Below are positions 9,020 to 57,758 of a stretch of DNA of 64,000 nucleotides, one piece after another. The stretch's first letter is position 1; the number at the start of each line of letters is the position of its first letter. The notes beneath the pieces were generated by a model, which worked only from the letters and a program-made list of their open reading frames with translations, was not told the DNA's origin and made no database searches. Source of the DNA: Bacteroidia bacterium (GTDB lineage: Bacteria; Bacteroidota; Bacteroidia; UKL13-3); contig JAIBAK010000002.1 in the NCBI GenBank assembly GCA_019695215.1, forward strand, positions 62,001-126,000, in the 5' to 3' direction. A program made the translations under genes and the position numbers.

Positions 9020-9024
9020 TAAAT

Positions 9025-9064: not shown

Positions 9065-9080
9065 TAAAATTAGTTCCCCA

Positions 9081-9177: not shown

Positions 9178-9184
9178 CAAGTGA

Positions 9185-9391: not shown

Positions 9392-9499
9392 TGACTTTTA
9401 GCCAAACAACTATACCCTCTATAGGTAGATTTATTTTCGTTTCTTCCTTATGTGTACTAAAAAAATATTTATCCCGTTATTAACGATATTTATAAAAAT

Positions 9500-10183: not shown

Positions 10184-10199
10184 TGATTCACTCCTGCCC

Positions 10200-10331: not shown

Positions 10332-10473
10332 GTCCTCTGCATTTGGTTTACCCCTGCGTGTCCGGGCAAACGCGGGCAGCATCTATCCGGCCCCTTCGGC
10401 TACGCTCAGGGGGCCTGTTAACGCTTGTGTGAGGATATCCCCGTTAGCATTGAACATAAAGTGTATTTCGTGC

Positions 10474-10503
10474 TTGACAAGCAGTTTTTTTCACCTAAGT
10501 TTG
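10474..10503 (+). promoter_or_regulatory. Bacteroidota-type promoter for the 10529-14042 operon
   Basis: TTGACA at 10474 and TAAGTTTG at 10496-10503 fit the -33 TTG / -7 TAnnTTTG pattern, with 19 bases between the TTG and TA. It lies 25 bases before the ATG at 10529. Three genes with gaps of 4 and 6 bases follow. Confidence 0.6.
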
Positions 10504-10528
10504 AGTGACCAAATTAAACAGGCATCTA

Positions 10529-10999: not shown

Positions 11000-11003
11000 T
11001 CCC

Positions 11004-12650: not shown

Positions 12651-12656
12651 TTTAAG

Positions 12657-14042: not shown

Positions 14043-14095
14043 AAATGATTTATAAGGGTAGTAAGGCTTCAGTTGAATATCCGGTGAAAAACTAC

Positions 14096-14482
14096 CTAAT
14101 TCTTTTTATCGTCCTGCAAATAAAACGTAGTAACTTTTAAATGCGGACTTATCTGCCGCGAAAAACTACAGGCTGTAACCAGAATGGCTCTCCCCGACCT
14201 GCGCTGGGCATACACAATATACCTGGCTCCTTTTTTAAAAAGAAAGCCGCATTTGTTTAGTGAAGGAGTTTTTATTACCAGATTTTTTTTCACTACCCCT
14301 TTAAAAATACTATCTGCGGCAAAACGCACCTGATACCCGTTTTTAAATTTACGCACAGCCGTTACCTGCCCTGTTGCAATTACCCCGGCACTTTGCTTAC
14401 CCATTACCAACTCGCAATCGCAGGCCCAAACATGCTCACCCGCCCCAAGCAAAACAAAAAACAGTAAATAAATTAAACGCAT
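14096..14482 (-). CDS. Small secreted TIMP/NTR-like (netrin-fold) protein
   Basis: A 128-residue protein whose signal peptide LIYLLFFVLLGAGEHVWA is followed at once by CDCELV, the C-x-C start typical of TIMP/NTR-like OB-fold proteins. The rest fits the fold: ATGQVTAV and YQVRFAADSIFKGV strands, VIKTPSLNKCGFLFKKGARYIVYA and ILVTACSFSRQ, giving four cysteines able to form two disulfides. Bacterial members are widespread but poorly understood; metalloprotease inhibition is proven only for animal TIMPs and should not be assumed. Transcribed alone, convergent with the preceding operon. Family assignment rests on motif pattern, so it is moderately certain. Confidence 0.65.
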   Translation of the reverse strand: MRLIYLLFFVLLGAGEHVWACDCELVMGKQSAGVIATGQVTAVRKFKNGYQVRFAADSIFKGVVKKNLVIKTPSLNKCGFLFKKGARYIVYAQRRSGRAILVTACSFSRQISPHLKVTTFYLQDDKKN

Positions 14483-14664
14483 GCTGCAAGGTAATTAACC
14501 CGCTTCAATTTCTGCTCATTTTCTCTTTGTTCGTTTAAAACAACTGCACCCATCATTATTTTTTAACCTTGATTTTCAAAAGAAAATAAAAAAATTACTC
14601 CCCAAAGCAACACTGCCCAAATGGTTCTTGTCTTGACCGCGAACCCCGAATACGTTACTGCATC

Positions 14665-16929
14665 ATGAATTTTTTAGCCCTGAGGTGTCTGCTTTTACTA
14701 AGTGTACCTGCTTTTGTTTTTGCCCAAAACCATGAACTCAAAGGAGTTATTATCGACCAAAAAACCGGAGAAACCCTTACGGGGGTTGTACTTGTATTAA
14801 ACGGAACATCCTTTCATGCGGTGACGGATTTAGACGGAAAATTTTCCATCAAAGCCCCCGCAGGTTCCTATTCATTAATTATTAAATACACGGGATACCA
14901 TCAAATTACCCTGCCTGTAAAAGTACCCGGCCAGCCTCTTTCGGTAAAAATGGTATCGGCAAAAACGCAACTGAAAGAAGTAGTGGTTAAGGCCAATGCC
15001 GCCAATCAGGATTTTACACAGAACAAGGGGTTACAGGCCGGAGTGATTCAATTATCGGCACAGCAAATTAAAGCGCTCCCATCACTGGCCGGAGAACAGG
15101 ATGTTATCAAAGCCATTCAGTTAATGCCGGGTGTAAAAAAAGGGACCGATGGTGGAAGTACCATGCTGGTGCGAGGAGGAAATAATGACCAAAACCTGTT
15201 TTTATTAGATGAAGCCGTAATTTATAATCCGGCACATGCCCTTTCGTTATTCTCCGTTTTTAACACAGATGCCCTGCAGGAAGTAAAGCTGATTAAAGGG
15301 CCGTTTGGTGCACCATACCATGGCCGACTTTCATCAGTAATGGAACTAAAAACCAAACAGGGCAATGCACAAAAACAACGCATTGAAGGAACATTAAGCA
15401 GTTTATCGGCACGGATTACAGCCGATGGCCCTTTAGTCAAAGGCAAACTTACCTATATGATATCGGCCAGACGCTCGTACCTTGATCAAACACTCAAACT
15501 GGCCAACCTCCATATTCCCTATCATTTTACTGATGTAAACAGCAAGTTGTGCTGGAATATAAATGAACAGAATAAACTAACCATGAGTGTGTATGCAGGG
15601 GATGATGTATTGTCGCCCGACAAATGGACCGCTGCCAAAAGCAATGAATTACTTACCAGTGCCCAAACACATTTTACCAACCGGGCCCTTTCCCTTCAAT
15701 GGATTGCTTCGCGCAAATCGCTTATGCAAACCATCAGTCTGGTTCATTCGGCCTATGCCTATTCCATCGGAGGTTCATTTTCGGGGAACACCGTTGATGC
15801 TTCATCGGGCATACAGGACTGGGGATTAAAAGCACGCTGGCACAAAACAGTCAACACACGACTGGGGTGGCAATGGGGAATTTCGGCCAACCGTCATTAC
15901 TTTCAGCAAACCGAACTAACTACCCGGGGAGAATTAATTACACCGGGCACTTCGCTTATACCGGCACAAACCAATTATGAAGCTGCTGCCTATACCGAAC
16001 TTTTTATTCGATTAAACAGTAAATGGGAATTAAATCCGGGAATCACCTTAAGCAGTGCTGCCACCGGAAACACCGTGTACCGCAATCCTGAACCCCGGCT
16101 TATGGTTTGTTACACACCCAATGAGCACACTACCCTTAAAGGCGGTTACTCGCGCATGGTGCAATACATGCATATGATTGCCTACTCATCATTTGCATTG
16201 CCCACCGATATCTGGTATCCGGCAAACAACTTTCTGAAACCTTCCACCTCCGATCAGTTATCGCTGGGATGGTTTCGCACCCATAAAAACTGGAACCTGA
16301 GTGTAGAGACTTATTACAAGCGCATGCAGCATGTATGCGAATTTGCCGAAGGAAAAGGCATTCAGTTTAAAATTCCTCTTCCAAAGGAAATTTCACAGGG
16401 AAAAGGCACTTCGTGGGGTGGAGAATGGATGGTACAGACCCATCAGAAAAAATGGAGCGCATGGATGGCCTATACGCTTGCATGGTCAACCCGGCAGTTT
16501 GATTCGGTAAACAATGGCAAAGTATATTACGCCCGTTACGACCGCAGGCACGATGTGTCAACAAGTGTTTCGTATAAACTGAAAAAAAACTGGAATGTAT
16601 GTGCCGTGTGGATCTTTGCCACAGGCGCCCGCTTTACACCGCAAACAGGAAGCTATTACGTACTTAAACCGGGAGGTGGCGGATTGCAGCAGGTACCGGT
16701 GTACGGTGGTACCAACTCGGCTAAATTTAAAAGTTCGCACCGGCTTGACATTAACTTTACCTATCAAAAAAATAAAAAAAGCGAATGGCAGATTGGTGCC
16801 TACAATACCTACAACCGAGCACAACCTTATAAAGTATCGGTGCATACCAATGCTGACGGAAGGTACACCTATCGCCAAAGCGGACTTTTAGGCTTTACTC
16901 CTTATATCAGTTATCATTTTACATTCTGA
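14665..16929 (+). CDS. TonB-dependent outer membrane receptor with carboxypeptidase-like N-terminal domain
   Basis: A 754-residue receptor. Signal peptide LRCLLLLSVPAFVFAQ; a CarboxypepD_reg-like domain (LKGVIIDQKTGETLTGVVLV ... VTDLDGKFSI, residues ~24-100); the plug domain with KAIQLMPGVKKGTDGGSTML, VRGG and FLLDEAVIYNPAHALSLFSVF; then a ~500-residue beta-barrel ending PYISYHFTF with the terminal Phe needed for BAM recognition. The plug variant (LMPGV, LDE-x-xIYN) is the one common in Bacteroidota receptors paired with DUF4249 lipoproteins, and such a lipoprotein begins 5 bases downstream. Ligand unknown; no iron box or sugar genes are adjacent. Confidence 0.9.
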   Translation: MNFLALRCLLLLSVPAFVFAQNHELKGVIIDQKTGETLTGVVLVLNGTSFHAVTDLDGKFSIKAPAGSYSLIIKYTGYHQITLPVKVPGQPLSVKMVSAKTQLKEVVVKANAANQDFTQNKGLQAGVIQLSAQQIKALPSLAGEQDVIKAIQLMPGVKKGTDGGSTMLVRGGNNDQNLFLLDEAVIYNPAHALSLFSVFNTDALQEVKLIKGPFGAPYHGRLSSVMELKTKQGNAQKQRIEGTLSSLSARITADGPLVKGKLTYMISARRSYLDQTLKLANLHIPYHFTDVNSKLCWNINEQNKLTMSVYAGDDVLSPDKWTAAKSNELLTSAQTHFTNRALSLQWIASRKSLMQTISLVHSAYAYSIGGSFSGNTVDASSGIQDWGLKARWHKTVNTRLGWQWGISANRHYFQQTELTTRGELITPGTSLIPAQTNYEAAAYTELFIRLNSKWELNPGITLSSAATGNTVYRNPEPRLMVCYTPNEHTTLKGGYSRMVQYMHMIAYSSFALPTDIWYPANNFLKPSTSDQLSLGWFRTHKNWNLSVETYYKRMQHVCEFAEGKGIQFKIPLPKEISQGKGTSWGGEWMVQTHQKKWSAWMAYTLAWSTRQFDSVNNGKVYYARYDRRHDVSTSVSYKLKKNWNVCAVWIFATGARFTPQTGSYYVLKPGGGGLQQVPVYGGTNSAKFKSSHRLDINFTYQKNKKSEWQIGAYNTYNRAQPYKVSVHTNADGRYTYRQSGLLGFTPYISYHFTF

Positions 16930-16934
16930 CATCC

Positions 16935-17825
16935 ATGAAAAAAATATATCCGTTTCAGTTTCTGCTTTTCATTCTCCTTATGGCGGCATCGTGCAAACCC
17001 GATGCATTGGAAACAACTGTTGAACCCGTGAATCAAAAATTAGTAATCAACTCCATGATTACCCCCGATACTTCCCTATGGATTTCGGTAACCCGAAGCA
17101 ATATTGCTTTTCCTTCCTTCAGTAACCTCACCCCCTCTTCCATCATATCTTTTATAGAAGGGATTGCTGTAAACGATGCATTGGTAACGCTTTCCTGCAA
17201 CGGATATACCGATACATTAACTGCACAGTCATGGGGGACTTATAAACTGGAGCAAATTCCGGTACACCCCGGTAAAATTTATCAGCTCACTGTGTTTAGG
17301 CCTTCAACAGGCGAAACCGCTTTTGCCTATGCAACCATCCCTTCAAAAAGTAAAATAAGGCAGGCATCGGTAACGGTGAACTACCGTACCGAACATCCGG
17401 CCATGGAACTGAATGCTTCTTTTGAAGACAACAGCACCACCCGCGATTTTTACATTGCCTCGTATTATGCGGTTGATATAGGTGACCTGAAAAAACATCC
17501 CGAAATGCTCTACCATTTTATGAATAAAAAACGGGTTGATTTTGATTTAATCAATGATTTGAAACAAACAAACGGCACCATAAGCCTTCACAAAAATTTT
17601 CCTGAAGAGTGCATAAGCGACACCTTAACTTTTATGGTTTCTCCGGTAGAGGAAGGTTATTACCGGTTTTTGGAACAACATAAACTATCGGGAGGTTTAC
17701 TCAGTCAGCTTGCCGGAGAAGTAGTAAGATACAAAACCAATATTCAGGGCGGTTACGGATATTTCAGTCTGCGACTTCCGGCTATTGTGCGCATTGCACC
17801 AACCGAATTTGAAATACTTAAATAA
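16935..17825 (+). CDS. DUF4249 domain lipoprotein, partner of the TonB receptor
   Basis: A 296-residue lipoprotein: signal FQFLLFILLMAASC with the lipobox AASC, then a hydrophilic Bacteroidota domain matching DUF4249: KLVINSMITPDTSLWISVTRS, VNDALVTLSCNGYTDTL and a C-terminal GGYGYFSLR. Such proteins are nearly always encoded beside TonB receptors of the type at 14665 and presumably help ligand capture at the cell surface. The 5-base gap means co-transcription with the receptor. Precise role unknown. Confidence 0.85.
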   Translation: MKKIYPFQFLLFILLMAASCKPDALETTVEPVNQKLVINSMITPDTSLWISVTRSNIAFPSFSNLTPSSIISFIEGIAVNDALVTLSCNGYTDTLTAQSWGTYKLEQIPVHPGKIYQLTVFRPSTGETAFAYATIPSKSKIRQASVTVNYRTEHPAMELNASFEDNSTTRDFYIASYYAVDIGDLKKHPEMLYHFMNKKRVDFDLINDLKQTNGTISLHKNFPEECISDTLTFMVSPVEEGYYRFLEQHKLSGGLLSQLAGEVVRYKTNIQGGYGYFSLRLPAIVRIAPTEFEILK

Positions 17826-17899
17826 CCGTTTATAAAATACTGATAAGTTAAACAGCCTCCCCTGAAACCGCTCGTTTAAATCCACCATACCATACCCCG

Positions 17900-17966
17900 T
17901 TTTCAGGGGTTTTCTTTTTTCACCATATCGGGTGATGTTTGGCCATACCTGTTCGCACAACTTTGT
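17900..17966 (+). promoter_or_regulatory. Shared promoter module, copy A (upstream of the VapA-like gene)
   Basis: TTTTCAGG (17900), then GGTGAT-GTTTGGC (17931), then CAACTTTGT (CTTTGT at 17961). The same three blocks with identical spacing (31 and 30 bases between block starts) occur at 18584-18650 and 22348-22414. CAnnTTTGT resembles the -7 box TAnnTTTG. In this copy the first block also pairs with CCCTGAAAC at ~17858, so it may double as the terminator of the preceding operon, being followed by TTTTCTTTTTT. Confidence 0.55.
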
Positions 17967-18060
17967 TTCGTTGAATCATACATGGTGTGTGCACCAACAA
18001 GGAGGAAGCCGAAAATCCTTTCTGAGAGTAGGCGAAAATTTCTTTTAATACCCTATTAAT

Positions 18061-18513
18061 ATGTCCACCAAAACACAACAAATTGACAAAGAAGCAATCG
18101 CTTCAAATTACCGCGCAGCCATGAAAGATCGCCTCAGTGCTGACCTGATTGAAAAAAATGTAAAAAAATTAACCGCAGACGGACTCACTTCTTACCCCGC
18201 AGTTGGAAACGTAGTGAGCGGGATTATTTACGACAAACTGCAATGCACCATCTCGGCATCAGGTGAGCAGTTCAATGGCCATGCATGGGGTGTGGGTACT
18301 CCGGGTGCCGGCTTTCTTACCGGTGATGTATGGACTTCCGATTTGTCGGGGTTATTGGCCAACACGGCCAATGTAAAACTGGTAGCTTTGGCAGGTGCCA
18401 TGTACAGCTTTTTTTACTTTTCTGACGAAGACGGAAATGCGTTGGGAACCTTTCAGGCATTAGCAATTTCAACCGTTGTTGGAGTTGGGAGTGGGTCGGG
18501 AAGCTGGTCATAA
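18061..18513 (+). CDS. VapA/VapB-like (Rhodococcus virulence-associated) domain protein
   Basis: A 150-residue protein without signal peptide. Residues ~55-150 resemble the VapA/VapB beta-barrel domain (Pfam R_equi_Vir): ISASGEQFNGHAWGVGTPGAG, then a TGDVWTSD strand and Y-x-F-F-Y-F-SDEDGNALGTFQA, and the ending STVVGVGSGSGSWS, the typical G-x-G-x-GSGSW tail. The N-terminal ~50 residues are helical and charged. In Rhodococcus equi VapA is secreted and disturbs phagolysosomes; the role of free-living homologues is not known. The gene stands alone with its own promoter module and a downstream hairpin. The match is from motif memory, not a search. Confidence 0.6.
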   Translation: MSTKTQQIDKEAIASNYRAAMKDRLSADLIEKNVKKLTADGLTSYPAVGNVVSGIIYDKLQCTISASGEQFNGHAWGVGTPGAGFLTGDVWTSDLSGLLANTANVKLVALAGAMYSFFYFSDEDGNALGTFQALAISTVVGVGSGSGSWS

Positions 18514-18539
18514 CAATAATTGGATTTTAAGTTTTAAAT

Positions 18540-18575
18540 GCCCGCAAAGCCAAATTGGCTTTAGCGGGCGTTTTG
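18540..18575 (+). terminator. Hairpin after the VapA-like gene
   Basis: GCCCGCAAAGCCAA and TTGGCTTTAGCGGGC pair as a long stem with one bulge, followed by GTTTTGG. It lies 27 bases after the stop at 18513 and before the next promoter module. The T-tract is short but the stem is strong. Confidence 0.6.
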
Positions 18576-18583
18576 GCTCCCTG

Positions 18584-18650
18584 TTTTCAGGGATATGTGA
18601 TTTTGGCGGTTTATGGTGATTTACGGCAAGCGGGGACTTCGCACCTTTGT
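18584..18650 (+). promoter_or_regulatory. Shared promoter module, copy B (upstream of small secreted paralogue 1)
   Basis: CCCTGTTTTCAGGG palindrome (TTTTCAGG at 18584), GGTGATTTACGGC (18615) and GCACCTTTGT (CTTTGT at 18645). Block order and spacing are identical to copies A and C. The GGTGATTT block lies where a -33 element would be, 30 bases before CTTTGT. The ATG is at 18691. Confidence 0.6.
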
Positions 18651-18690
18651 CTTGTTCAAAAACGAAATAAAAAATTAAAATTATAAAGTC

Positions 18691-19089
18691 ATGAAAACAG
18701 TAACCACCACCCTCAGCCTTTTAATCGCTTTGTTCATCTCTTTTTCTTCATCTGCTCAAACCACCGGCAGCAAAACCAATCAGGTAGCTGTTGAAATAAC
18801 ACATGAAGATGGTCAGGTAGTTTTAAACTGGAACACGGTAAAAGAAATTAACTCGAGCTATTTTCTGGTTGAAAAATCGACTGACGGAATCCATTTTACT
18901 CAGGTAAAAATGATAACCGCTGCAGGCAACTCCAATTTTGCCCGTAATTACACCTTTACCGACCCTGACACAAACAACGGCAACGTATTTTACCGGGTAA
19001 TGCTGGTTACCATGAACGGCCAGCAGATTGTTTCGGCATCGGTTCCTGCTCTTAATACCTCTCTTACCAATAACCTGGCTGTTAAATAA
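18691..19089 (+). CDS. Small secreted protein with Fn3-like strand pattern, paralogue 1
   Basis: A 132-residue protein with the signal peptide TTTLSLLIALFISFSSSAQ. The mature part is a single beta domain: VEITHEDGQVVLNWNTVKEIN, SSYFLVEKSTDGIHFTQVK, AGNSNFARNYTFTD, VFYRVMLVTMNGQQIVSAS. This is the pattern preceding T9SS tails in many Bacteroidota proteins (the VEKSxDGxxF block), but here the sorting tail is absent and the protein ends shortly after. It is about 55-60% similar to the protein at 22440 along its whole length and shares its promoter module. Function unknown. Confidence 0.7.
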   Translation: MKTVTTTLSLLIALFISFSSSAQTTGSKTNQVAVEITHEDGQVVLNWNTVKEINSSYFLVEKSTDGIHFTQVKMITAAGNSNFARNYTFTDPDTNNGNVFYRVMLVTMNGQQIVSASVPALNTSLTNNLAVK

Positions 19090-19090
19090 G

Positions 19091-19121
19091 TTTGGTTAAT
19101 TGAAATATTTCTTTAAGTTTG
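19091..19121 (+). promoter_or_regulatory. Bacteroidota consensus promoter for the 19164 gene
   Basis: TTTG at 19091-19094 and TAAGTTTG at 19114-19121 are separated by 19 bases, an exact fit to the -33 TTTG / -7 TAnnTTTG consensus. It lies 42 bases before the ATG at 19164. Confidence 0.7.
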
Positions 19122-19163
19122 GTTTTTAATCACCTTAATTCATTCTACTAAATCCACAACCAC

Positions 19164-19991
19164 ATGAGCACACCATTTGATCCCAACAATCCATTCAACG
19201 TTCGGGGCGTAAACATCAGCCCCGGGATGCCCGATGGCACCGAACCCAAAAACAATATCTACTACTACCTTATTTTTATTGATGTAGTAAAAAATCAGGA
19301 AGCCGGAGGTGGTGTAAATGCTACCCTGTTTACCCCGCTCAACTTTCAGGAAACTGGCAGTACACTTACCTATGGGTATAACAGCCCGTTGCAAATACCT
19401 GTCGACCCCTCCATCGACCCTAACCAGGTAATTGAAACCATTGCCCTGCCGCTTTACACTAATCAAAAAATTGATAAGCCGGACCCCAATCAAAACGGAA
19501 ATAACCTCACCATTACCATTTCCACCTTCGATCAAAACGGAAATCCGCTGCTTATTTCAGGTAACCCTAATAAACAAAAACCTCCCGTTTTTCCGGTAAT
19601 TAACGGCCCCAACGACCTCGTGGGCGTAGAGGTTACCAGTTTAACAGATGGAAGCCCCTTTTGCGTGTATATGGCTAACCCGGGCCCGAGCAATGATATT
19701 AACTGTGCAAATGTGTTTTCGAATGCAAACACCAGTACCGGGGAGAAACTATACTACTTGTATTTCCAGTATCAGTTACCGGGTACTTCACCCTTTGCCT
19801 GGCAAAACCTGTTACCCGGACGAAATGATGAAGGGGTTGCTGTGGTGGGCGGAGTAGCCAGCACCGCCACCTCCTGGCCGTATATTATCATTCTTGCTCC
19901 GGGGGTTCAGGTAGACCCAACCCTGCCGGCTGGCGAGCAGGGATATGCTGCCGAAACTCCCATTGAGAATATGCAATACATAAGCATGTAG
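19164..19991 (+). CDS. Protein of unknown function, no signal peptide
   Basis: I do not recognise the 275-residue product. It begins MSTPFDPNNPFNVRGVNI with no export signal and is rich in Asn, Pro, Gly and Thr. Recognisable stretches are NNIYYYLIFIDVVKNQ, a low-charge middle with DPSIDPNQVIETIALPLYTN, and WPYIIILAPGVQVDP near the end. The composition suggests an all-beta or fibre-associated protein, but no domain is evident. It has its own consensus promoter and a strong terminator, so it is a monocistronic gene. It lies between a small secreted protein and a T9SS subtilase. Confidence 0.6.
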   Translation: MSTPFDPNNPFNVRGVNISPGMPDGTEPKNNIYYYLIFIDVVKNQEAGGGVNATLFTPLNFQETGSTLTYGYNSPLQIPVDPSIDPNQVIETIALPLYTNQKIDKPDPNQNGNNLTITISTFDQNGNPLLISGNPNKQKPPVFPVINGPNDLVGVEVTSLTDGSPFCVYMANPGPSNDINCANVFSNANTSTGEKLYYLYFQYQLPGTSPFAWQNLLPGRNDEGVAVVGGVASTATSWPYIIILAPGVQVDPTLPAGEQGYAAETPIENMQYISM

Positions 19992-19998
19992 TTTACAA

Positions 19999-20030
19999 AA
20001 AGGGTTGCATGGCTAAATCTGCAACCCTTT
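19999..20030 (+). terminator. Intrinsic terminator after the 19164 gene
   Basis: AAAGGGTTGCA (19999-20009) and TGCAACCCTTT (20020-20030) form a perfect 11-bp stem with a 10-base loop, 8 bases after the stop, followed by a pyrimidine-rich tract. The A-flanked stem would work on either strand. Confidence 0.75.
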
Positions 20031-20127
20031 CCTACTTCTTTTCAAGTGCCTCTTTCACTACGGCATTTGCCTGCGAGGCCAACAGCATACTACTAAAACA
20101 AACAGTTTCTCCTTTATTTTTCGAATC

Positions 20128-22311
20128 ATGAAATCAATTACGTTCCAATTTATATTATTTCTTTACATAACTGTCACCCCGGTGCAGGCACAAACCGGTA
20201 ATGCACGGTTTTCTACCAACCTGCTGCACTGGATGCACTCCAATGCAAATGCCGGGCATGTAGTTAAATTTAAAATAGCTAACACCACTTATATGAGTGC
20301 CCTGATGAAAGTGAATGCCGCCATTGATGAAAATCAATTGCAGCAAATGGGGGTAATTGTTGGCACCAAAGCCGGTGATATCTGGACGGTAAGAGTTCCG
20401 GAAACACAAATGATGGCCTTTACCAAAATGACAGGCATTGATTTTATTGAACTCGACCGGAAAGCAAGGCCCCTGATGGATTCTGTTCGGTATTTTACAG
20501 GTATTGATTCCGTTCACCAGGGAATTGACGTACCACTCCTGTCGGGAAAAGGTACAATTGTGGGCGTTCTTGATCATGGTTTTGATTATACACACCCTGC
20601 CTTTTATGATACCAGTTATTCCAAATTACGTATACAGCGCGTGTGGGATCAACGAATTTCAGGAACCCCTCCGGCAGGATTCAGCTATGGCACCGAATTC
20701 AAAGACACGGTGAGTATGTTGCAAAAAAAATTCTCAGTAACTACATTCGACCATGGCATGTCTACAAGTTCAATAGCAGTCGGTTCAGGATATGGAAGTG
20801 CCAATAACACGCAGTTTAGAGGGGTAGCTTATGATTGTGATATTGCTTTAGTGGAATCGAATGCCGATACCACCGAATTTGGGGTATTTACCTACGCCAC
20901 CATAATTGATGGCTTTAAGTATATTTTTAATTATGCCGATTCGGTGGGAAAACCGGCTGTTATCAACGTCAGCCTCGGAGGCCAAGACGGGCCGCATGAT
21001 GGCACCTCTTTATTTGGCCGAGCCTGTGATAATATAACAGGTCCGGGAAAAATTATTGTTTTCGCAGCAGGCAATGATGGAATTACAACCAGTCACCTGC
21101 AAAAAACATTTACCCCAGCCGATACCAGCATTAGTACCATTGTAAACCTTTCAGCCAATTGGGATGATCTTGAATTGTGGGGCGACACCGGCAAATCCTA
21201 TTGTCTGGAAATTGGTTTGTTTTCAAACGGAGTGAAAGGTGCAAAAACGCAAACCATATGCCTCGATAATATTTATAGAAATCTGGTATTGATTGGTACT
21301 GACAATGACACCAGCTTCATTTCCATTGGTTCTGAAATTAATGTATTAAACAACAAACCGCATTTTGCCATCAGAATTGACCACAGAACAAAAGATTCCA
21401 TTTATTTAACTGCGAAGGGAACAGACGGGACAGCCCATCTTTGGATTTCCGGAGAGTTTAAAGGGAATGGAACCTGGGCTACCGAAGGAGATTCGCGTCA
21501 CTCTGTTTGCGAATATGCCAGCTCGAAATCGTGCATCACCGTAGGAGCCTACTCCACCAGAACTTCCTGGAAAAATATTCAAAACCAGGTGGTACCTGTA
21601 CCTACCAACATTGTAAAAACCAGAGGCGACATTGCCCTGTTCTCGAGTCACGGACCAACTATGGATGGCAGGATGAAACCGGAAATAACGGCTCCCGGTT
21701 CCATGATTGGCTCTGCCACCAACTCGTTCTCTCCTGCTTTCAGACCAGGTGGCGGATTTTATTTCTGTACCGTAACAAAATATCTTTCTCCCCGCAATAA
21801 CAGAAACTATTATTACTCCATGACACAGGGTACATCCGTAGCCGCTCCTGTAGTTACAGGTGCCATTGCTTTGTTACTTCAGGTAAATCCCAACTTAACC
21901 GTAGATCATATTCGAAAAATACTTACCGCTACTGCCATCAGAGACAGTTTTACCACGCAAAATCCTGATCCTGCCAAATGGGGTGCCGGCAAAATAAATG
22001 CGTATGCCGCCATTAAAGAAACCATCTGGTGGGTAGGCACTGTTCCCGTTCCCAAAAACGAAATAGAAATTAAAGTATATCCTAATCCGAATAACGGACC
22101 ATTCACTATAACATACAATACCGAAAATTCAGGCTATTTTCTGGTTGAAATCAGTACCCTCACCGGGCAAACGGTTCATCAGCAATCATGGGAACTGAAA
22201 AAAGGTGAAAATGCATTACCCGTTGATTTAACTGCATTAGGAAAAGGAATTTATTTTCTAACCATTACCGGACAAGGCGGGCAGGTGGTAAAAAGAATTG
22301 CCATTAACTAA
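20128..22311 (+). CDS. S8 family subtilisin-like serine protease with T9SS sorting domain
   Basis: A 727-residue secreted protease. Signal peptide to VQAQ (~residue 22); a short propeptide-like region (residues ~25-120); the catalytic domain with Asp149 in GVLDHGFDYTHP, His209 in FDHGMSTSS, the oxyanion Asn316 in FAAGNDG and the nucleophile Ser570 in MTQGTSVAAPVVTGAIALLL. The long spacing between Asn and Ser contains an inserted beta domain (residues ~330-450), common in Bacteroidota subtilases. The C-terminal ~80 residues hold KVYPNPNNGPFTITY and end VVKRIAIN, a type A sorting domain. The triad is intact, so it should be an active extracellular endopeptidase; substrate unknown. Confidence 0.93.
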   Translation: MKSITFQFILFLYITVTPVQAQTGNARFSTNLLHWMHSNANAGHVVKFKIANTTYMSALMKVNAAIDENQLQQMGVIVGTKAGDIWTVRVPETQMMAFTKMTGIDFIELDRKARPLMDSVRYFTGIDSVHQGIDVPLLSGKGTIVGVLDHGFDYTHPAFYDTSYSKLRIQRVWDQRISGTPPAGFSYGTEFKDTVSMLQKKFSVTTFDHGMSTSSIAVGSGYGSANNTQFRGVAYDCDIALVESNADTTEFGVFTYATIIDGFKYIFNYADSVGKPAVINVSLGGQDGPHDGTSLFGRACDNITGPGKIIVFAAGNDGITTSHLQKTFTPADTSISTIVNLSANWDDLELWGDTGKSYCLEIGLFSNGVKGAKTQTICLDNIYRNLVLIGTDNDTSFISIGSEINVLNNKPHFAIRIDHRTKDSIYLTAKGTDGTAHLWISGEFKGNGTWATEGDSRHSVCEYASSKSCITVGAYSTRTSWKNIQNQVVPVPTNIVKTRGDIALFSSHGPTMDGRMKPEITAPGSMIGSATNSFSPAFRPGGGFYFCTVTKYLSPRNNRNYYYSMTQGTSVAAPVVTGAIALLLQVNPNLTVDHIRKILTATAIRDSFTTQNPDPAKWGAGKINAYAAIKETIWWVGTVPVPKNEIEIKVYPNPNNGPFTITYNTENSGYFLVEISTLTGQTVHQQSWELKKGENALPVDLTALGKGIYFLTITGQGGQVVKRIAIN

Positions 22312-22347
22312 GCCCGTGATGTGAGCCGGAGAAACGCCTCTTCCCTG

Positions 22348-22414
22348 TTTTCAGGTATATTCTTTTTTACCCGATTGCGGTGATTTGCGGCCCGTGTTTG
22401 CTTTGCATCTTTGT
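22348..22414 (+). promoter_or_regulatory. Shared promoter module, copy C (upstream of small secreted paralogue 2)
   Basis: CCTGTTTTCAGG palindrome (TTTTCAGG at 22348), GCGGTGATTTGCGGC (GGTGAT at 22379) and GCATCTTTGT (CTTTGT at 22409). Spacings are identical to copies A and B. The ATG at 22440 is 25 bases after the CTTTGT block. Confidence 0.6.
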
Positions 22415-22439
22415 ATGGTACAAACAAACACCTTATATC

Positions 22440-22832
22440 ATGAGCGCAATTAAAATTACTCTACTCCTTTTATCGCTGCTAATTACCTTTACAGCCTTTG
22501 CACAAACAACCTCGTTGCGGGCAAATGAAATACATATGGAAATTATGCTCGAAGACGGACAGGTTACCATTTTGTGGAACACCATGAAGGAAGTAAACAC
22601 CAGCTACTTTGTGATAGAAAAATCGGAAGACAGCCTGCATTATACTGCCTTAAAAATGGTTTCGGCAGCAGGGAATTCCGTTTTTGCACGCCACTACCAG
22701 ATTACCGAAACTGAACCCGCTGCCGGAAAAGTATATTACCGCGTGCGTTTAGTTACCATGAACGGGCAGCAAATTGCCTCGGCCCCGGTTATCACAAATA
22801 CAGGAAGCATGGCAAATATGGTAAGTAAATAA
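22440..22832 (+). CDS. Small secreted protein with Fn3-like strand pattern, paralogue 2
   Basis: A 130-residue paralogue of the protein at 18691. Signal peptide IKITLLLLSLLITFTAFAQ, then DGQVTILWNTMKEVNTSYFVIEKSEDSLHYTALKMV in two recognisable strands, AAGNSVFARHYQIT and VYYRVRLVTMNGQQIASAP. It also stops without a T9SS tail. The start chosen is the ATG after the promoter module; a longer frame from 22380 would translate the promoter itself. It sits immediately upstream of the histidine kinase gene (78-base gap), but that gene has its own TACATTTG box at 22856. Confidence 0.7.
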   Translation: MSAIKITLLLLSLLITFTAFAQTTSLRANEIHMEIMLEDGQVTILWNTMKEVNTSYFVIEKSEDSLHYTALKMVSAAGNSVFARHYQITETEPAAGKVYYRVRLVTMNGQQIASAPVITNTGSMANMVSK

Positions 22833-22910
22833 ATTTAACAATCCTGTTTATTTAGTACATTTGGTCAATTATCACCTAAATCCTTTATCCTGAAGTATAC
22901 GTTAACTCCC

Positions 22911-52896: not shown

Positions 52897-53079
52897 GTAA
52901 TGCACCACCATATCCACCTATTGCCTCTACCGTACAGCAACGCTTTGCCGCAAACAGGTACCTTTTTGTCCGGTATTAAGGAGTTGCAGGATGAGAAAAG
53001 GAGCAAAACAACCGAAATTTACACACATGTAAGTACCCATAGTATTCAAAAAACAGTATCTCCATTTGATGATTTATGA
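52897..53079 (+). pseudogene. Decayed C-terminus of a tyrosine recombinase (XerC/D-IntI superfamily)
   Basis: The last ~27 codons read RSKTTEIYTHVSTHSIQKTV then SPFDDL, an almost exact copy of the end of Bacteroidota tyrosine recombinases (SSKTTEIYTHVS...KSPxDDL). Upstream, TGTFLSGIKELQDEK aligns with the usual xGTDLRYIQELLGHK, but the catalytic Gly-His of LLGH is replaced by Asp-Glu. Before that, HLLPLPYSNALPQ corresponds weakly to HTLRHSFATHLLE with the HxxR catalytic pair lost. The N-terminal domains are absent. It cannot be an active enzyme. It lies directly before the repeat region and gene cassettes that follow and suggests which enzyme once acted there. Confidence 0.75.
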
Positions 53080-53110
53080 GTAGATTATTAATTTTACAAA
53101 ACGAACAAAA

Positions 53111-53179
53111 CCTTCGTATACTTTCCCGTATTGGCGATATATACGAAGGTTTATATCGCATATATACGAGTTATAGGGC
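53111..53179 (+). other. attI-like recombination region: nested direct and inverted repeats before the first cassette
   Basis: Within 60 bases: CCTTCGTATA (53111) inverted as TATACGAAGG (53140); GCGATAT (53134) inverted as ATATCGC (53153); ATATATACGA directly repeated at 53137 and 53160. The second direct repeat runs straight into GTTATAGGGC (53170-53179), a GTTRRRY-like boundary at which the first cassette begins. Tyrosine recombinases bind such paired core sites, and integron attI sites have accessory direct repeats next to a GTT core. Assignment is inferred from position and structure. Confidence 0.5.
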
Positions 53180-53204
53180 ATTTTAAAAGACGACCGAGAA
53201 ACAA

Positions 53205-54290
53205 ATGAAAGTAACCTTATCAACAATATTTTTTTTGCTATTGACCATTTGTGTAAGTGGGCAAGTAAATGGGTTACGGACAAAACATATTGACGAAAAT
53301 TATTCTTGGAGAAACAAAACAGCCGAACAAATTGACAGTTTCTATTTTGACCTTCAACCAATTCAAACCACAAAATTCAAAGCTCATTTTCGCATTTCTT
53401 TGACAGGTCAAACAATTGACTTTTTTAGCTCAGACAATGTAAAATTTCAGGGAATACTAACAAACTACATAACTGAATATATAACTGTAAAAAGCAAGGG
53501 CAGCGATTATGACCAAAGCAAAGAACATCAATATGTTATTGAACAAATAGATTTGGAGCAAACAAAAGTTGACAAATTTGTAGAAGGACTTATAAAAACA
53601 GGACAGCTTGAAATTCCAACAGACACTTTAATTTCTTCTTGGCAACGTAATTTTTTACATTGTAATAGCTTAGCCTTTCAGTTCAATATTGACGGAAAAT
53701 ATACAAAGCAAATTTTCCATTGCCCTTGGGGACAGAAAGACAGTATAGAATTTAAAAGCATTATTTTGAACAATTCCGAAAACTTGAAATCAACTTTTCA
53801 GCTTGACTCTATTTATGACAGCTTTGAAGGTAAATTACCCAAAGGAAAAACATACTCTCGTGACGGATACAGAATGGTGTACAAAATGACTGACCAACAA
53901 TCAGAAAATTGGAAGAAAAGTCAACCTCAAAGAGACTATATGAAATCAGTAAAAGACACGGTTGATAGTTATTTAAATTCTGAACTTAAAAAACAAAAAA
54001 ATCAATTGAATGGAATTGACTGTTTTGAAGATTATCGTTTGACATTTGGAAAGAATGGGAAATTGAAATCGGTAACTCTTTCTGATTACGACAAGCCTAC
54101 TCTTAAAAAATCACTTGGACTTGGCGACTATCTTGCCGACAAGAAAGAAATCAGAAAATGTAAAAGGAAAATAAAACAAATATTCAGTAGTATTGACTTG
54201 AGTTTTCTGAATTTGGAAACAGAAATTTATCGGACTTTAAGTATTGGACTTGACAATGAAATTCAACTACGAGACGACACAATATATTGA
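53205..54290 (+). CDS. Cassette gene 1: secreted protein of unknown function
   Basis: A 361-residue protein with the signal peptide KVTLSTIFFLLLTICVSGQ. No family recognised. The body is rich in Lys, Asp and Thr (DYDQSKEHQYVIEQIDLEQT, NFLHCNSLAFQFNIDGKYTK, CPWGQKDSIEF) and ends LGLDNEIQLRDDTIY. Codon and base use is visibly A+T-richer than that of the RND operon before it, a sign of separate origin. The leader from the GTTATAGGGCA boundary through AAAGACGACCGAGAAACA resembles the leader of the gene at 56168 (GTTATAGCCAATG...AAGACGACAACGGAGAAACA), supporting a common cassette design. Confidence 0.6.
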   Translation: MKVTLSTIFFLLLTICVSGQVNGLRTKHIDENYSWRNKTAEQIDSFYFDLQPIQTTKFKAHFRISLTGQTIDFFSSDNVKFQGILTNYITEYITVKSKGSDYDQSKEHQYVIEQIDLEQTKVDKFVEGLIKTGQLEIPTDTLISSWQRNFLHCNSLAFQFNIDGKYTKQIFHCPWGQKDSIEFKSIILNNSENLKSTFQLDSIYDSFEGKLPKGKTYSRDGYRMVYKMTDQQSENWKKSQPQRDYMKSVKDTVDSYLNSELKKQKNQLNGIDCFEDYRLTFGKNGKLKSVTLSDYDKPTLKKSLGLGDYLADKKEIRKCKRKIKQIFSSIDLSFLNLETEIYRTLSIGLDNEIQLRDDTIY

Positions 54291-54317
54291 CAATGGAAAG
54301 AAAAACCCCCCAACTCG

Positions 54318-54407
54318 TCCTCGTTTGCAACGAGGATGCAAGAGATTGTTTGTTTAGAATCAAATTTTACCGCTCGTTTCTACCAAAGGTAGACAAGTGC
54401 AACGAGC
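54318..54407. repeat. Palindromes inserted at the 3' side of cassette 1
   Basis: TCCTCGTTTGCAACGAGGA (54318-54336) is a perfect hairpin of the same CGTTTGCAACG family as 9109-9177, in the other orientation. GCTCGTT (54372) pairs with AACGAGC (54401) around an inner CTACC-AAA-GGTAG hairpin. They occupy the place where the 5' half of the cassette-1 recombination site would be expected; no AAC half-site complementary to GTTATAGGGC is found there. Confidence 0.6.
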
Positions 54408-54435
54408 AACAGCAATCTTTCCACTAGCTTTTGCC

Positions 54436-54499
54436 AATTTTTATCACCAATTTTACCTTGCAGTGTGGATGTGTTTTTTCACACGCTGTCGTTAGCGGT
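54436..54499 (+). other. attC-like 3' half-site and boundary of cassette 2 (Fic)
   Basis: The segment with TTTTTATCACCAATTTTACC, CAGTGTGGATGTG and TTTTTTCACAC is shared with the two later sites and carries an AGTGTG/CACAC hairpin. It is followed by GCTGTC and the boundary GTTAGCGGT (54491-54499). The reverse complement of that boundary, ACCGCTAAC, occurs right after the Fic stop. The 5' half of this site is lost among palindromes. Confidence 0.6.
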
Positions 54500-54568
54500 A
54501 ATGTTTTTACAGCACTTCGTATTAAACAAGCCACCCAAGTAAAACGACTTAAAACTAGCTAGTTTGAC

Positions 54569-54631
54569 TTGCGGAGAATAATTTTAGCATTCACCGCATT
54601 TTTGCGGAGAATAATGCTTATATTTGCCGCA
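54569..54631 (+). promoter_or_regulatory. Tandem 30-bp operator-like repeats overlapping the Fic promoter
   Basis: Two copies of TTGCGGAGAATAATnn...CCGCA (54569-54598 and 54602-54631), 33 bases apart, each with TGCGG/CCGCA inverted ends. The second copy contains TATATTTG (54619-54626), a perfect TAnnTTTG -7 box, with TTTG at 54601 as a possible -33. The ATG is 16 bases further. A factor binding both repeats would cover the promoter; the C-terminal winged helix of the Fic protein itself is a candidate autorepressor (inference). Confidence 0.6.
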
Positions 54632-54647
54632 ACAACTGTTTTAAAAA

Positions 54648-55751
54648 ATGGCTAAATACATTTACGAATACAAAAACTGGACAGACTTCACTTGGCGGGA
54701 AACCGCCATCAATGCAATATTTGGTGAAGTCCGCAACCTGCAAGGCAAGATTATAGGACAGATGAATACACTTGGATTTGCTACAAAAGAAGAGGCAACA
54801 CTTACTACACTGACACTTGACGTCATTAAATCATCTGAAATAGAAGGAGAAAAACTCGACTATGACCAAGTTCGTTCGTCAATTGCAAGAAGACTTGGTA
54901 TTAATATAGCCGGGCTTGTTCAAGCAAATAGAAACGTGGAAGGAGTTGTAGAGATGATGCTTGATGCAACTCAAAACTATCAAAAGCCATTGACAAATAA
55001 ACGGCTGTTTGGATGGCATTCTGCTCTTTTTCCGACAGGACACAGCGGAATGCACAAAATTGAAGTTGGACGCTATCGAAAGGGTGAAATGCAAATAGTT
55101 TCAGGTGCTATGGGAAAAGAAAAAGTCCATTACGAAGCGGTTCCTGCATACAGAGTAAAAGAAGAAATGGACAAGTTTTTAAAATGGTTTAATGACAACT
55201 CCCCTATTGACCCTGTTCTAAAATCTGCAATTGCTCATTTCTGGTTTATTATCATACACCCATTTGACGATGGAAACGGAAGAATTGCAAGAGCAATTTC
55301 AGATTTAATGCTTGCCCGTGCAGACAAGACAACTGAACGATATTATAGTATGTCAAGCCAAATTTTGATTGAACGAAAACAGTATTACGAGACTTTACAA
55401 AAGGTTCAACACAGCAGTGGCGACATTACAGATTGGTTAGACTGGTTTTTGCATTGCCTGAAGAATTCGTTACTGACAACAGAGACTACTCTGCAAAAAA
55501 TATTACGTAAAACTGAATTTTGGAAAATTCACGAAAACACTGAATTTAACGAACGACAGAGATTGGTTTTAAACAGACTCTTTGATGGATTTGAGGGGAA
55601 ACTAAAATCATCTAAGTGGGCAAAAATTGCCAAATGTTCACCCGACACAGCATTGCGTGACATTAAGGATTTAATTGACAAGGGAATATTACGCCATGAG
55701 CAACAAGGTGGACGAAGCACAAACTACGAACTTGCAGACTTCTTAAAGTAA
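54648..55751 (+). CDS. Cassette gene 2: Fic family AMPylase with N-terminal DUF4172 and C-terminal winged helix
   Basis: A 367-residue protein. The N-terminal DUF4172 region (YIYEYKNWTDFTWRETAINA) contains SSEIEG, which fits the class II inhibitory motif (S/T)xxxE(G/N). The Fic core motif is complete: HPFDDGNGRIAR near residues 204-215, with the flap region before it (GRYRKGEMQIVSGAM). The last ~65 residues look like a winged helix (NERQRLVLNRLFDGFEGKLK, SKWAKIAKCSPDTALRDIKD). Fic enzymes transfer AMP to target hydroxyls and are often self-inhibited. Targets unknown. The gene has its own operator/promoter, is A+T-rich and lies between matching cassette boundaries GTTAGCGGT and ACCGCTAAC. Confidence 0.9.
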   Translation: MAKYIYEYKNWTDFTWRETAINAIFGEVRNLQGKIIGQMNTLGFATKEEATLTTLTLDVIKSSEIEGEKLDYDQVRSSIARRLGINIAGLVQANRNVEGVVEMMLDATQNYQKPLTNKRLFGWHSALFPTGHSGMHKIEVGRYRKGEMQIVSGAMGKEKVHYEAVPAYRVKEEMDKFLKWFNDNSPIDPVLKSAIAHFWFIIIHPFDDGNGRIARAISDLMLARADKTTERYYSMSSQILIERKQYYETLQKVQHSSGDITDWLDWFLHCLKNSLLTTETTLQKILRKTEFWKIHENTEFNERQRLVLNRLFDGFEGKLKSSKWAKIAKCSPDTALRDIKDLIDKGILRHEQQGGRSTNYELADFLK

Positions 55752-55755
55752 CACT

Positions 55756-56124
55756 ACCGCTAACAGCGGTAGCTATTGACAACTCTGTTCTTTTTGATTT
55801 ATTGAGGCGAATAGCGGGCTTATGGGCCCTTTCAATTTTTAGCTCAGTGTTTTTAGATGAAGGTTTTGGTGAGCAGTAATGGAAGCAGAATTTGTTGTAT
55901 GATGTGGTTTTCTAATTGAAACAGGTTTTCAGTAAGGGTTATCAGGCTCCACCTAGTCATCTATGCAGTTAAACGATACCAGTAACCGGTTGTGCGATTG
56001 AATATGATCCGTGCGCGCATCCTCAGCAAAAAATCAACCACAAGAATTTGCTATTCCCGGTTTTTATCACCAATTTTACCTTGCAAAGTGTGGATGAGTT
56101 TTTTCACACTCTGCCGTTATAGCC
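55756..56124 (+). other. attC-like site between cassette 2 and cassette 3
   Basis: Begins 4 bases after the Fic stop with ACCGCTAAC-AGCGG (55756-55769) and ends with CACACTCTGCC-GTTATAGCC (to 56124). The 3' 163 bases (55957-56119) are nearly identical to 56802-56963 and include an AGTGTG-x12-CACACT hairpin right before the boundary. The 5' part is unique. No gene is seen in it. At ~370 bases it is longer than classical integron attC sites. Confidence 0.6.
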
Positions 56125-56167
56125 AATGTTAAGACGACAACGGAGAAACAGCAAATCAATAGACGAC

Positions 56168-56662
56168 ATGACAAAATACCTAATCATAATTCTTATTTCC
56201 TCCTTGACAATTTTCTCCTGCAACGACAGCGAGAAAAGTACTTCTAATATTGACAAACCACAACCCAAATGGGACAAAATAACTCTCAGGACAGACTTTC
56301 AATCAATAGACATCTATGCTGACAGAGACACGATAATCAACAATACTTGGGGACTTAAAGACAGTTTAGTAAAACCTGGTGAAGTTTGGCACATACCGAC
56401 CAACAAAAAGCAAGAAAGAATTTATTTGGAACCTGCGAATAAAGACACAATTCATTCTTTAGTTATGGACATTATAACTAAACCAGTATTTACCGACCAA
56501 TCGGTGACATGTTATGCAGGAAATATTAGAATTTGTGTTCAGTCAAACAACACAGAACTTTGTTGTAGGTATTCTTCCGTTGGCGACTGGACTACTGTAT
56601 CTGCAAACACGAGAAAATTATATACTATTTTAAGTGGCAAGACAAGAATAAGCACGCAATAA
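56168..56662 (+). CDS. Cassette gene 3: small lipoprotein of unknown function
   Basis: A 164-residue lipoprotein from MTKYLIIILISSLTIFSC, with a short hydrophobic signal and lipobox-like TIFSC. An ATG 14 codons upstream lies within the cassette leader and would destroy the signal peptide. The mature part is polar (WDKITLRTDFQSIDIYADRD, VWHIPTNKKQERIYLEPANK) and has four cysteines in its second half (SVTCYAGNIRICVQ, ELCCRYSS). No family recognised. Bounded by GTTATAGCC before and GGCTATAAC after, which are perfect reverse complements. Confidence 0.65.
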   Translation: MTKYLIIILISSLTIFSCNDSEKSTSNIDKPQPKWDKITLRTDFQSIDIYADRDTIINNTWGLKDSLVKPGEVWHIPTNKKQERIYLEPANKDTIHSLVMDIITKPVFTDQSVTCYAGNIRICVQSNNTELCCRYSSVGDWTTVSANTRKLYTILSGKTRISTQ

Positions 56663-56690
56663 CATGAAGCGAAACGGACAAGGAAACACT

Positions 56691-56969
56691 GGCTATAACA
56701 GCAGCTACCCAAAAGGCGGGGTTTCGTGTTCCAAAGACAGTTTTATTGTTAATCAAACATTAGTTTTTCAAATCAAGTTTTGTTGTAAACTTCTCACCTG
56801 TTCATCCATGCTGACAAATGTTACCTGTAACCGATTGTGCGATTGAATATGATTCATGCACGCATCCTCAGCAAAAAATCAACCACAAGAATTTGCTATT
56901 CCCGGTTTTTATCACCAATTTTACCTTGCAAAGTGTGGATGCGTTTTTCACACTCTGCCGTTAGGTGTA
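56691..56969 (+). other. attC-like site between cassette 3 and cassette 4
   Basis: Starts with GGCTATAAC-AGCAG (56691-56704) and ends with CTGCC-GTTAGGTGTA (to 56969). The outer arms pair: GGCTATAAC with the GTTATAGCC that opened cassette 3, and AGCAG with the CTGCC preceding each boundary. The 3' ~162 bases (56802-56963) repeat the block at 55957-56119 almost exactly. A small reading frame at 56664 crosses the site and is not a gene. Confidence 0.6.
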
Positions 56970-57003
56970 ATTTTGCAATGCGTAATTTGACAAATTAAGA
57001 ATC

Positions 57004-57591
57004 ATGGACAATTTCATTGTAGGCTTACTTTTATTCTTAGTAGAAATTTTTGTAATAAGCATTATTGGTGGACTTATTTACTTGATTTATTTACCAATCA
57101 AAAAAAAATTATTAAAATCGGGTAAGTTGACTTTAAGCCTTAGTCAAAAAATTAATAGAATATATATATCCTCTTTTTTTATTTGTTTTTTAATCCTATT
57201 CTCCTTCTCATATATTGGTGTTTTCCCGCGTGACAGCTTTTATATTGAGGAGTTCAAATATAATACTGGACTTGAACTTCCAGACTCTGCGGAAATCATA
57301 ACAAAAGATGCTTCCTATCCAGACTTTTTTGGGGACTTTTGGGCTGCTGCAATTATCGAACTTAGCACAGAGGACTACGAAAAATTGAAAAATAATATTT
57401 CACATTTAAAGAACTTTAAAATTGACACGACTTCACAAAAAATAGGAATAACAGAAGCATACAACGTCTTGACAAAAGAAATTAAAGAAAGTGATTTAGA
57501 CATTGTATTCTTTAATAACAAGCAACATTGGTTTAAAGTCGCATTTCTCAAAGACAAACGGACAATAATATTTGAAAGAAGCAGCTCATAA
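57004..57591 (+). CDS. Cassette gene 4: small membrane protein of unknown function
   Basis: A 195-residue protein. Two transmembrane helices: VGLLLFLVEIFVISIIGGLI near the start and ISSFFICFLILFSFSYIGVF at ~50-70, joined by a Lys-rich cytoplasmic loop. They are followed by a ~120-residue soluble domain outside the membrane: GLELPDSAEIITKDASYPDF, FFGDFWAAAIIELSTEDYEK, VFFNNKQHWFKVAFLKDKRT. No named family recognised. A+T-rich like the other cassette genes. Its boundary GTTAGGTGTA matches TACAGCTAAC after the gene with one difference in ten. Confidence 0.65.
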   Translation: MDNFIVGLLLFLVEIFVISIIGGLIYLIYLPIKKKLLKSGKLTLSLSQKINRIYISSFFICFLILFSFSYIGVFPRDSFYIEEFKYNTGLELPDSAEIITKDASYPDFFGDFWAAAIIELSTEDYEKLKNNISHLKNFKIDTTSQKIGITEAYNVLTKEIKESDLDIVFFNNKQHWFKVAFLKDKRTIIFERSSS

Positions 57592-57604
57592 CAGAAAGAA
57601 AAAC

Positions 57605-57712
57605 TACAGCTAACAGCACCCTTGTGTGATGCTGGGGTTCGTGCAAGTTGCAAGCGCATTTTTTTAGCGGTATAAATTTATGTTGGCGCTTGCTGTGTAA
57701 GCATCCCCGAAA
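57605..57712 (+). other. Last cassette's 3' half-site and end of the array
   Basis: TACAGCTAAC-AGCACCC starts 13 bases after the stop of cassette gene 4 and has the same AACAGC core as the other two sites. Beyond it is a CAAGCGC (57650) / GCGCTTG (57695) inverted pair around an A/T-rich loop, then GCTGTGTAAGCATCC. No GTT boundary and no copy of the conserved 160-base block follows, so the array appears to end or to be truncated here, next to the convergent ABC exporter operon. Confidence 0.5.
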
Positions 57713-57758
57713 ATAGTACATTTTAAAAGTAGAAAATAAATTTATAATTTTAACGTAC

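Follow-up and report, generated by a model that had tools for sequence, protein, structure and literature searches.

Worn integron-like gene cassettes behind a XerA-like integrase in a Bacteroidia genome

A stretch of 64,000 nucleotides (nt) of a Bacteroidia draft genome (G000:C20:62001-126000, hereafter the window; the genome is 3.3 Mb in 82 contigs and 90%-complete) raises the question of how four same-strand genes came to stand in a row behind the remains of a tyrosine recombinase. The remnant at 52993-53079 is followed by 90 nt, a GTT at 53170 and the four genes, which extend to 57614. We read this locus as a worn integron-like array, whose units would have been inserted singly at G/TT by a XerA-like integrase lacking the IntI-specific domain, and assign this reading a probability of about 0.85. 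The evidence throughout is sequence comparison, and it argues that the system is a real integron-like cassette system, to be filed apart from the IntI integrons. An original prediction, made from the letters of the window, had proposed such an array with a decayed integrase, and the latter corresponds to the C-terminal remnant. The parts of the array are as follows.

52993..53079, plus strand: C-terminal remnant of a tyrosine recombinase (..KTTEIYTHVSTHSIQKTVSPFDDL stop); an intact copy lies on contig C5 of the same genome
53080..53172, plus strand: attI-like site, ..CGCATATATACGA then GTT at 53170; same sequence end as contig C5
53170..54290, plus strand: cassette 1, gene of 361 amino acids (aa) at 53205-54290; 3' end and attC lost
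54427..54490, plus strand: IS1182-type right-end remnant (assigned by the likeness of its end) within the site that separates cassettes 1 and 2
54491..55764, plus strand: cassette 2 core, Fic/DOC protein (367 aa), ends GTTAGCGGTAATGTT / AACACTACCGCTAAC
55765..55949, plus strand: left part of the cassette 2 attC, begins AGCGGTAGC
55950..56115, plus strand: IS1182-type right-end remnant
56116..56699, plus strand: cassette 3 core, short lipoprotein-like open reading frame, ends GTTATAGCCAATGTT / AACACTGGCTATAAC
56700..56794, plus strand: left half of the cassette 3 attC, resembling the left half of the complete site of locus L180
56795..56959, plus strand: IS1182-type right-end remnant; the minus strand reads MNHIQSHNRLQVTFVSMDEQV, resembling a transposase start
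56960..57614, plus strand: cassette 4 core, small membrane protein (195 aa), ends GTTAGGTGTAATTTT / AAAACTACAGCTAAC

For cassettes 2 to 4, the start of the unit is complementary to its own end. The boundary pairs lie exactly where the original prediction had placed them, and the pairing is longer than it had claimed, reaching 15 nt. Fourteen of 15 positions are paired in the Fic unit (54491 to 55764) and in the lipoprotein unit (56116 to 56699), and 13 of 15 in the membrane protein unit (56960 to 57614). Position 11, an A, is unpaired in all three.

Loci of the same kind were drawn from a contig scan for integrase relatives, which gave at least 587 stretches. The best 80 of these were kept; they are nearly all titled Bacteroidota, with one Ignavibacteria and one Azoarcus record. 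Downstream of 91 of 102 integrase C-termini, distinct by sequence, an attI-like pattern ending in GTT was found within 150 nt. Its GTT lies 85-106 nt from the integrase in 73 of the 91 loci, and the cassettes are on the same strand and hold genes that differ from locus to locus. Arrays were then built among the 91 loci by end pairing and a closing palindrome. This yielded 103 cassettes (102 distinct) in 42 loci, 24 of which hold a single cassette. The longest array, with 11 cassettes, is found in Flavobacterium terrisoli (L141), followed by 8 in F. luteum (L153) and 7 in F. saccharophilum L157, F. limicola L169 and L185.

Among the 102 distinct cassettes, own ends paired at frequencies of 0.95-1.00 at positions 1-9, 0.66 at position 10 and 0.77-0.89 at positions 12-15, and the pairing stopped sharply at position 16. 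Swapped ends paired at 0.28-0.69 at positions 4-10 and at 0.33-0.47 at positions 12-15. The cassettes had been chosen by positions 1-10 and the L box; positions 11-15 are independent of that choice. The A at position 11 was unpaired in all 102, standing opposite C in 86, G in 13 and A in 3 cassettes. The unit is formed of GTT, seven variable bases and an A at its start, with the reverse complement at its end, and the R' box GTTRRRY fits 7 of the 102. A cassette's 3' end paired with the start of the next cassette about as well as with swapped starts, which argues that the unit is the cassette and not the site in place.

First cassettes were assayed at those 68 loci where 600 nt or more follow the attI-like site. 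The first 10 nt served as a key, whose reverse complement, with AAC at the end, was sought in the 3 kb downstream, and keys swapped in from other loci, with at least three differences, served as control. The own key matched at 9/10 or better in 53 of 68 first cassettes, compared to 171 of 3946 swapped keys, and at 10/10 in 25 of 68, compared to 11 of 3946. This agrees with the cassette reading and the G/TT boundaries of the original prediction. The 86 loci with at least 15 nt past attI show 83 distinct 15-mers, and an A occupies position 11 in 83 of these 86 first cassettes. In ten of the 91 loci, no more than 40 nt follow the attI GTT. Loci ending just past attI include L062, L083, L092, L093, L096, L101, L106, L135, L173 and L209, as if the assembly broke where cassettes vary within the population.

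The Fic cassette bears on the mobility of the units. At E 1e-30, 46 of the 295 genomes from the class have DNA resembling it, the window genome counted; of 19 Fic loci fetched, 17 match part of the unit only. The closest cassettes are those of genomes G263 (91%) and G180 (87%), from two other families. Homology starts at window position 54490 and stops at 55770 (G263) and 55777 (G180). Identity amounts to 0.48 and 0.45, respectively, in the 100 nt upstream of the core, 0.95 and 0.90 in its last 100 nt, and 0.50 and 0.48 in the next 100 nt. The two cassettes pair with their own ends at 13 of 15 (G263) and 12 of 15 (G180) positions, and both carry a matched substitution at position 4 (G-C for A-T), the two ends lying 1.27 kb from each other. 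The G263 cassette is preceded by the apparent right half of an ordinary site. A gene order shared with other genomes and free of breaks at GTT, which the original prediction had held to speak against cassettes, was not what we found: the Fic gene stands apart from its window neighbours, in other families and with breakpoints at CG/TT. Cassette 1 is present in 2 of 295 genomes, the window genome and G075 (another family, with a differing attI-like sequence), where the homologue (82%) lies at the attI-like site with both ends intact. Units of this kind were likely captured and swapped like integron cassettes. We see next to no chance that the palindromic sites are terminators or repetitive extragenic palindromic (REP)-like repeats, with end pairing a product of chance or selection without mobility. 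Although the sites are intergenic and do fold, the paired ends are those of one gene, which lie 0.6 to several kb from each other, and not the halves of a site, and the Fic unit keeps its edges in other families.

The sites of the window are also marked by a repeated 160-base block, which the original prediction had named a 3' block. The repeat is real and matches 16 places in the window genome; it is an end of the IS1182 type of insertion sequence (IS). In locus L080 (genome G007), an element of 1736 bp lies between the AAAACG and the CGTT of an otherwise normal site, with the ends TCAGGTTGTGAAAAAAC and, from the other side, TCAGAGTGTGAAAAAAC. The first 500 residues of its 512-aa transposase score 362.4 bits as IS1182 family (cut-off 270), and the window block shares the right end of the element, ...GTTTTTTCACACTCTGACGTT. 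The minus strand of the window block reads MNHIQSHNRLQVTF, which resembles the transposase start MEYITPHNRSQVEF. Judged by these ends, the constant 160-base 3' block and the core CTG(C/T)CGTT, formerly held to be a constant feature of the sites, belong to the insertion sequence and not to the recombination site. The remnants in the window are assigned to IS1182 by similarity because they keep the end only. The sites had further been called unusually long. This is true of the window, where they are interrupted by IS1182-type ends, but undisturbed sites measure ~118 nt between AAC and GTT. The right half of the cassette 2 attC was not found in the window. Complementarity at other copies of the block, which the original prediction had led one to expect, was observed at 10 of 32 starts after the block's end motif, with scores of at least 10 of 11; of the other starts, 5 are the opposite IS end and 17 score 6 to 9.

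The position of this IS1182-type end directly 5' of cassettes 2, 3 and 4 could suggest a transposable element that carries the genes and gives the cassette look as a by-product. We hold this to be extremely improbable. The complementary ends vary by gene and lie outside the element, the complete L080 element is bounded by terminal repeats of its own within a site that is otherwise normal, and an IS1182 transposase was not found in the 90%-complete window genome. Transposition by the block was dropped because arrays elsewhere that are free of it obey the same end-pairing rule.

Elements of the IS1182 family were also observed in L080 (3014-4749, minus strand), L069, L070 and L078, with their ends abutting attC at AACG and CGTT. 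The L080 element is complete, with CG on both sides; the other three are known by one or both ends. In these loci the element is apparently an attC-targeting insertion sequence, and we know of no such habit in the IS1182 family. IS1111-attC elements and group IIC-attC introns are mobile elements that target attC. The present element resembles them in inserting in attC sites and differs in that it is of the IS1182 family and lies within the AACGTT of the R' box, flanked on either side by CG.

An ordinary site measures ~118 nt from AAC to GTT, this distance being 116-121 nt in 77 of 103 cassettes. The L stem, analyzed in 40 sites, comprises 19 pairs with 83.4% of cells paired, and its covariation is 0.670, compared to 0.194 (sd 0.016) when shuffled and at most 0.149 when slid. 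It keeps one offset over 19 positions, with weak pairing at position 5 and hardly any at 14. Extrahelical or bulged bases in the L stem were absent from the aligned sites of 112-123 nt, which have mismatches at positions 5 and 14 instead. Between the R and L stems, the left side has 1 unpaired base and the right side 5. Rfam gave sub-threshold matches only for the window and none for the 11-cassette array.

From 40 training sites we built a covariance model of the site interior only, from AAC to GTT (model R1), and searched 78 genomes with it, the window genome included, scoring 45 candidates per genome; five of the training sites come from five of the searched genomes. At least one site at E 0.01 was found in 71 of 78 genomes. 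The window genome has five, one of which is the broken site at window 56697-56822 (E 0.006). Consecutive sites were then tested for end pairing in 20 stretches chosen for having matches, with 87 sites and 63 consecutive pairs within 6 kb. Six pairs were dropped for an end other than GTT or AAC. Of the 57 left, 44 paired perfectly at positions 4-9, compared to 90 of 3192 swapped pairs, and position 11 paired in 0.07.

The following mechanism would fit these observations. A XerA-like integrase would insert single-gene units one by one at G/TT behind the attI-like site, presumably cutting between G and TT of the R' box. Its substrate would be one folded attC strand, because the end sequences vary freely while their pairing is kept, and the excised unit would be a circle with its two ends facing each other. 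The window array is likely inactive in cis because its integrase is truncated; the intact integrase of contig C5 could act on it in trans.

This intact integrase has 358 aa (G000:C5:97-1170). Its contig breaks off 93 nt past the stop codon with ...CATATATACGAGTTA, which also precedes the first window cassette. The closest named relatives are Bacteroidia, and its homologues (E 1e-40 or better) are present in 48 of 78 genomes, the window genome counted. The catalytic residues R215, K240, H305, R308, H331 and Y340 are invariant in integrase alignment A1. In all 10 integrases aligned with IntI1, 41 columns of the IntI1 catalytic domain are absent, which we take to be the place of the IntI-specific additional domain. 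The integrase scores 205.9 against the integron model TIGR02249, under the cut-off of 265, and no integrase of the window genome passes the cut-off of the IntI model. It scores 236.7 bits against NF040815 (XerA), over the cut-off of 220; NCBI words this family as 'site-specific tyrosine recombinase/integron integrase'. The best PDB matches by sequence and fold are 4a8e and 5hxy. A structure model (pLDDT 81.8, pTM 0.51) gave similar scores to XerA (5hxy) and IntI4 (2a3v) and was not used further as evidence. In a tree whose outgroup is one Xer row on a long branch, 35 Bacteroidota integrases form one group (94/84) and nine IntI1-like ones another (100/99), which is compatible with loss of the IntI domain as well as with a separate origin. 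XerA thus offers the best curated family and the best PDB matches. The known role of XerA is chromosome dimer resolution; the present enzymes differ in adjoining an attI-like site with cassettes and in carrying an N-terminal extension. This extension, residues 1-80, is conserved (..GARWSxTxKxWH..) and precedes the core-binding domain; a Pfam search with it was without match. The guess of a diverged or undescribed system is borne out. Because the integrase family lacks the IntI-specific domain, an IntI with that domain, the proposed search target, was the wrong one to look for.

A canonical integron with a domain-bearing IntI and merely divergent sites would share much with these loci. As in integrons, a tyrosine recombinase stands beside a single attI, and unrelated genes on one strand are each closed by a palindromic site, here within the published range of 57-142 nt for attC. 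AAC and GTT are conserved, the boundary is G/TT, the start of a cassette pairs with its own 3' end, and the spacer between the R and L stems is asymmetric and unpaired. End pairing beyond the R boxes is known from cassettes, for 9-11 nt in the passages concerned (PMC2727003). The integrase points towards attI, which is otherwise exceptional but is described for the Treponema integron in the cited part of PMC3607928. We nevertheless regard this explanation as quite improbable, given the 41 missing columns in 10 of 10 integrases, the scores against the two models, the GTTRRRY fit of 7 in 102 and an L stem with mismatches in place of extrahelical bases. The integrase differs from those of integrons in its additional N-terminal part and in the missing IntI-specific stretch. 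In R', free bases follow GTTR where integrons have GTTRRRY, and pairing runs to 15 nt, interrupted by a constant A that stays unpaired at position 11. GTTRRRY is a weak criterion in this comparison, because the Treponema passages name just AAC and GTT as conserved.

Several observations weigh against the cassette system as proposed. The key of the window's own cassette 1, GTTATAGGGC at 53170, matches downstream at best 7/10, as its 3' end was replaced or lost, and this cassette is among the 15 of 68 first cassettes that fail. Also among these failures are loci with less than 1.5 kb left and a few whose attI position was probably mispicked. Thirteen of the 57 consecutive pairs are imperfect at positions 4-9, most of the clear failures being in genome G023. 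Two of five stem measures (pairs changed on both sides and further pair types) are not above shuffles. The window intervals folded alone gave z-scores of -1.14 and -1.64, which are not significant; their sites are broken by insertion-sequence ends. The site-model search was confined to genomes of the phylum. Lastly, the link between integrase and sites rests on position, with sites in 71 and the integrase in 48 of 78 genomes. In G023 (L253, L255, L256), CAGGTTTAGTTCAAC stands directly 5' of several site-model matches and in no case pairs with the start before it; a different type of site or repeat may underlie these matches.

The positional link and the surplus of genomes with sites would also be expected if the cassettes are real but moved by another recombinase, XerC/XerD or an unseen IntI, with the XerA-like integrase a passenger or neighbour. 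We consider this unlikely, since in 91 of 102 cases the integrase is followed by an attI-like site, mostly (73 of 91) at 85-106 nt, with its cassettes on the same strand, and the IntI cut-off is passed by none of the window genome's integrases. Moreover, draft genomes and sites without an integrase are to be expected for integrons, too. We retain insertion by the XerA-like integrase as the preferred reading.

The title of the 2001 study by Messier and Roy calls the IntI additional domain necessary for activity. The same domain has been used for selecting intI genes, according to the relevant part of PMC2426708. IntegronFinder 2.0 reports integrons from Salinibacter and the Chlorobi group, i.e., the wider group, in the section consulted (PMC9024848); these were found by IntI and attC models, whereas the present systems lie under the IntI model cut-off. 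Surveys list Bacteroidota integrons, naming in the passages concerned just site-less integrases and one complete Salinibacter integron. Plasmids searched with IntI1 yielded IntI1 itself, at 99% or more, and nothing else. The passages at hand from open-licence PMC literature (including PMC9024848, PMC9668308, PMC8138268, PMC8618304, PMC2426708, PMC2727003, PMC3607928 and PMC8352920) hold no description of the system, with subscription papers and preprints outside this scope. The system is very likely undescribed.

Further features were observed around these arrays. Upstream of the recombinase remnant in the window lies a large gene which, judged from its translation, resembles an RND-type efflux pump. 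A protein family search with the 361-aa product of cassette 1 found none, and an assignment of the cassette 4 membrane protein to TMEM117 was rejected, as its Pfam score is under the cut-off. The sequence AGCATCCCCGAAAA.AGTACATTTTAAAAG ends two arrays of the window genome (window 57700-57729 and L017, minus strand, 15682) and is a possible array-end feature. Both places with a missing cassette 3' end, window 54314 and L017 minus strand 7744, carry CTCGTCCTCGT in its expected position. L017 also holds, on its minus strand at 8017-15425, a 7.4-kb unit with a helicase-like gene of 2283 aa; its ends GTTAGCGGT / ACCGCTAAC pair at positions 1-9 and not at 12-15. On a plasmid of Chryseobacterium sp. 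SNU WT5 (L132, NZ_CP041688.1), a cassette array spans 15143-22882. Its attI is occupied by a mini-cassette of ~170 nt without a gene (GTTGGGAAAAATCG..), which recurs four times along the array; an IS110 transposase and a group II intron maturase are also part of the array.

Taken beyond the window, the comparisons make it probable that the Bacteroidota have their own phylum-wide class of integron. Here, a XerA-like recombinase without the IntI domain would capture single-gene cassettes at an attI behind its own gene, and the folded attC strand would be read via unpaired A positions at fixed distances and not via extrahelical bases. Most genomes of the class would hold cassettes, and searches by IntI and attC models would miss them. 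Integrons are a main route for bacteria to stock and shuffle genes; if this reading is true, a large gene-exchange system of the Bacteroidota has gone unrecognised. The surveys' passages name a single complete integron, that of Salinibacter, whereas the present search has site matches in 71 of 78 genomes. A working cassette system without the IntI domain would show either that cassette exchange can do without the domain or that it was rebuilt with another recombinase, and extrahelical bases would not be the sole mark of a folded site. With the end-pairing rule and the site model, the system can be searched for, also on plasmids such as that of Chryseobacterium.

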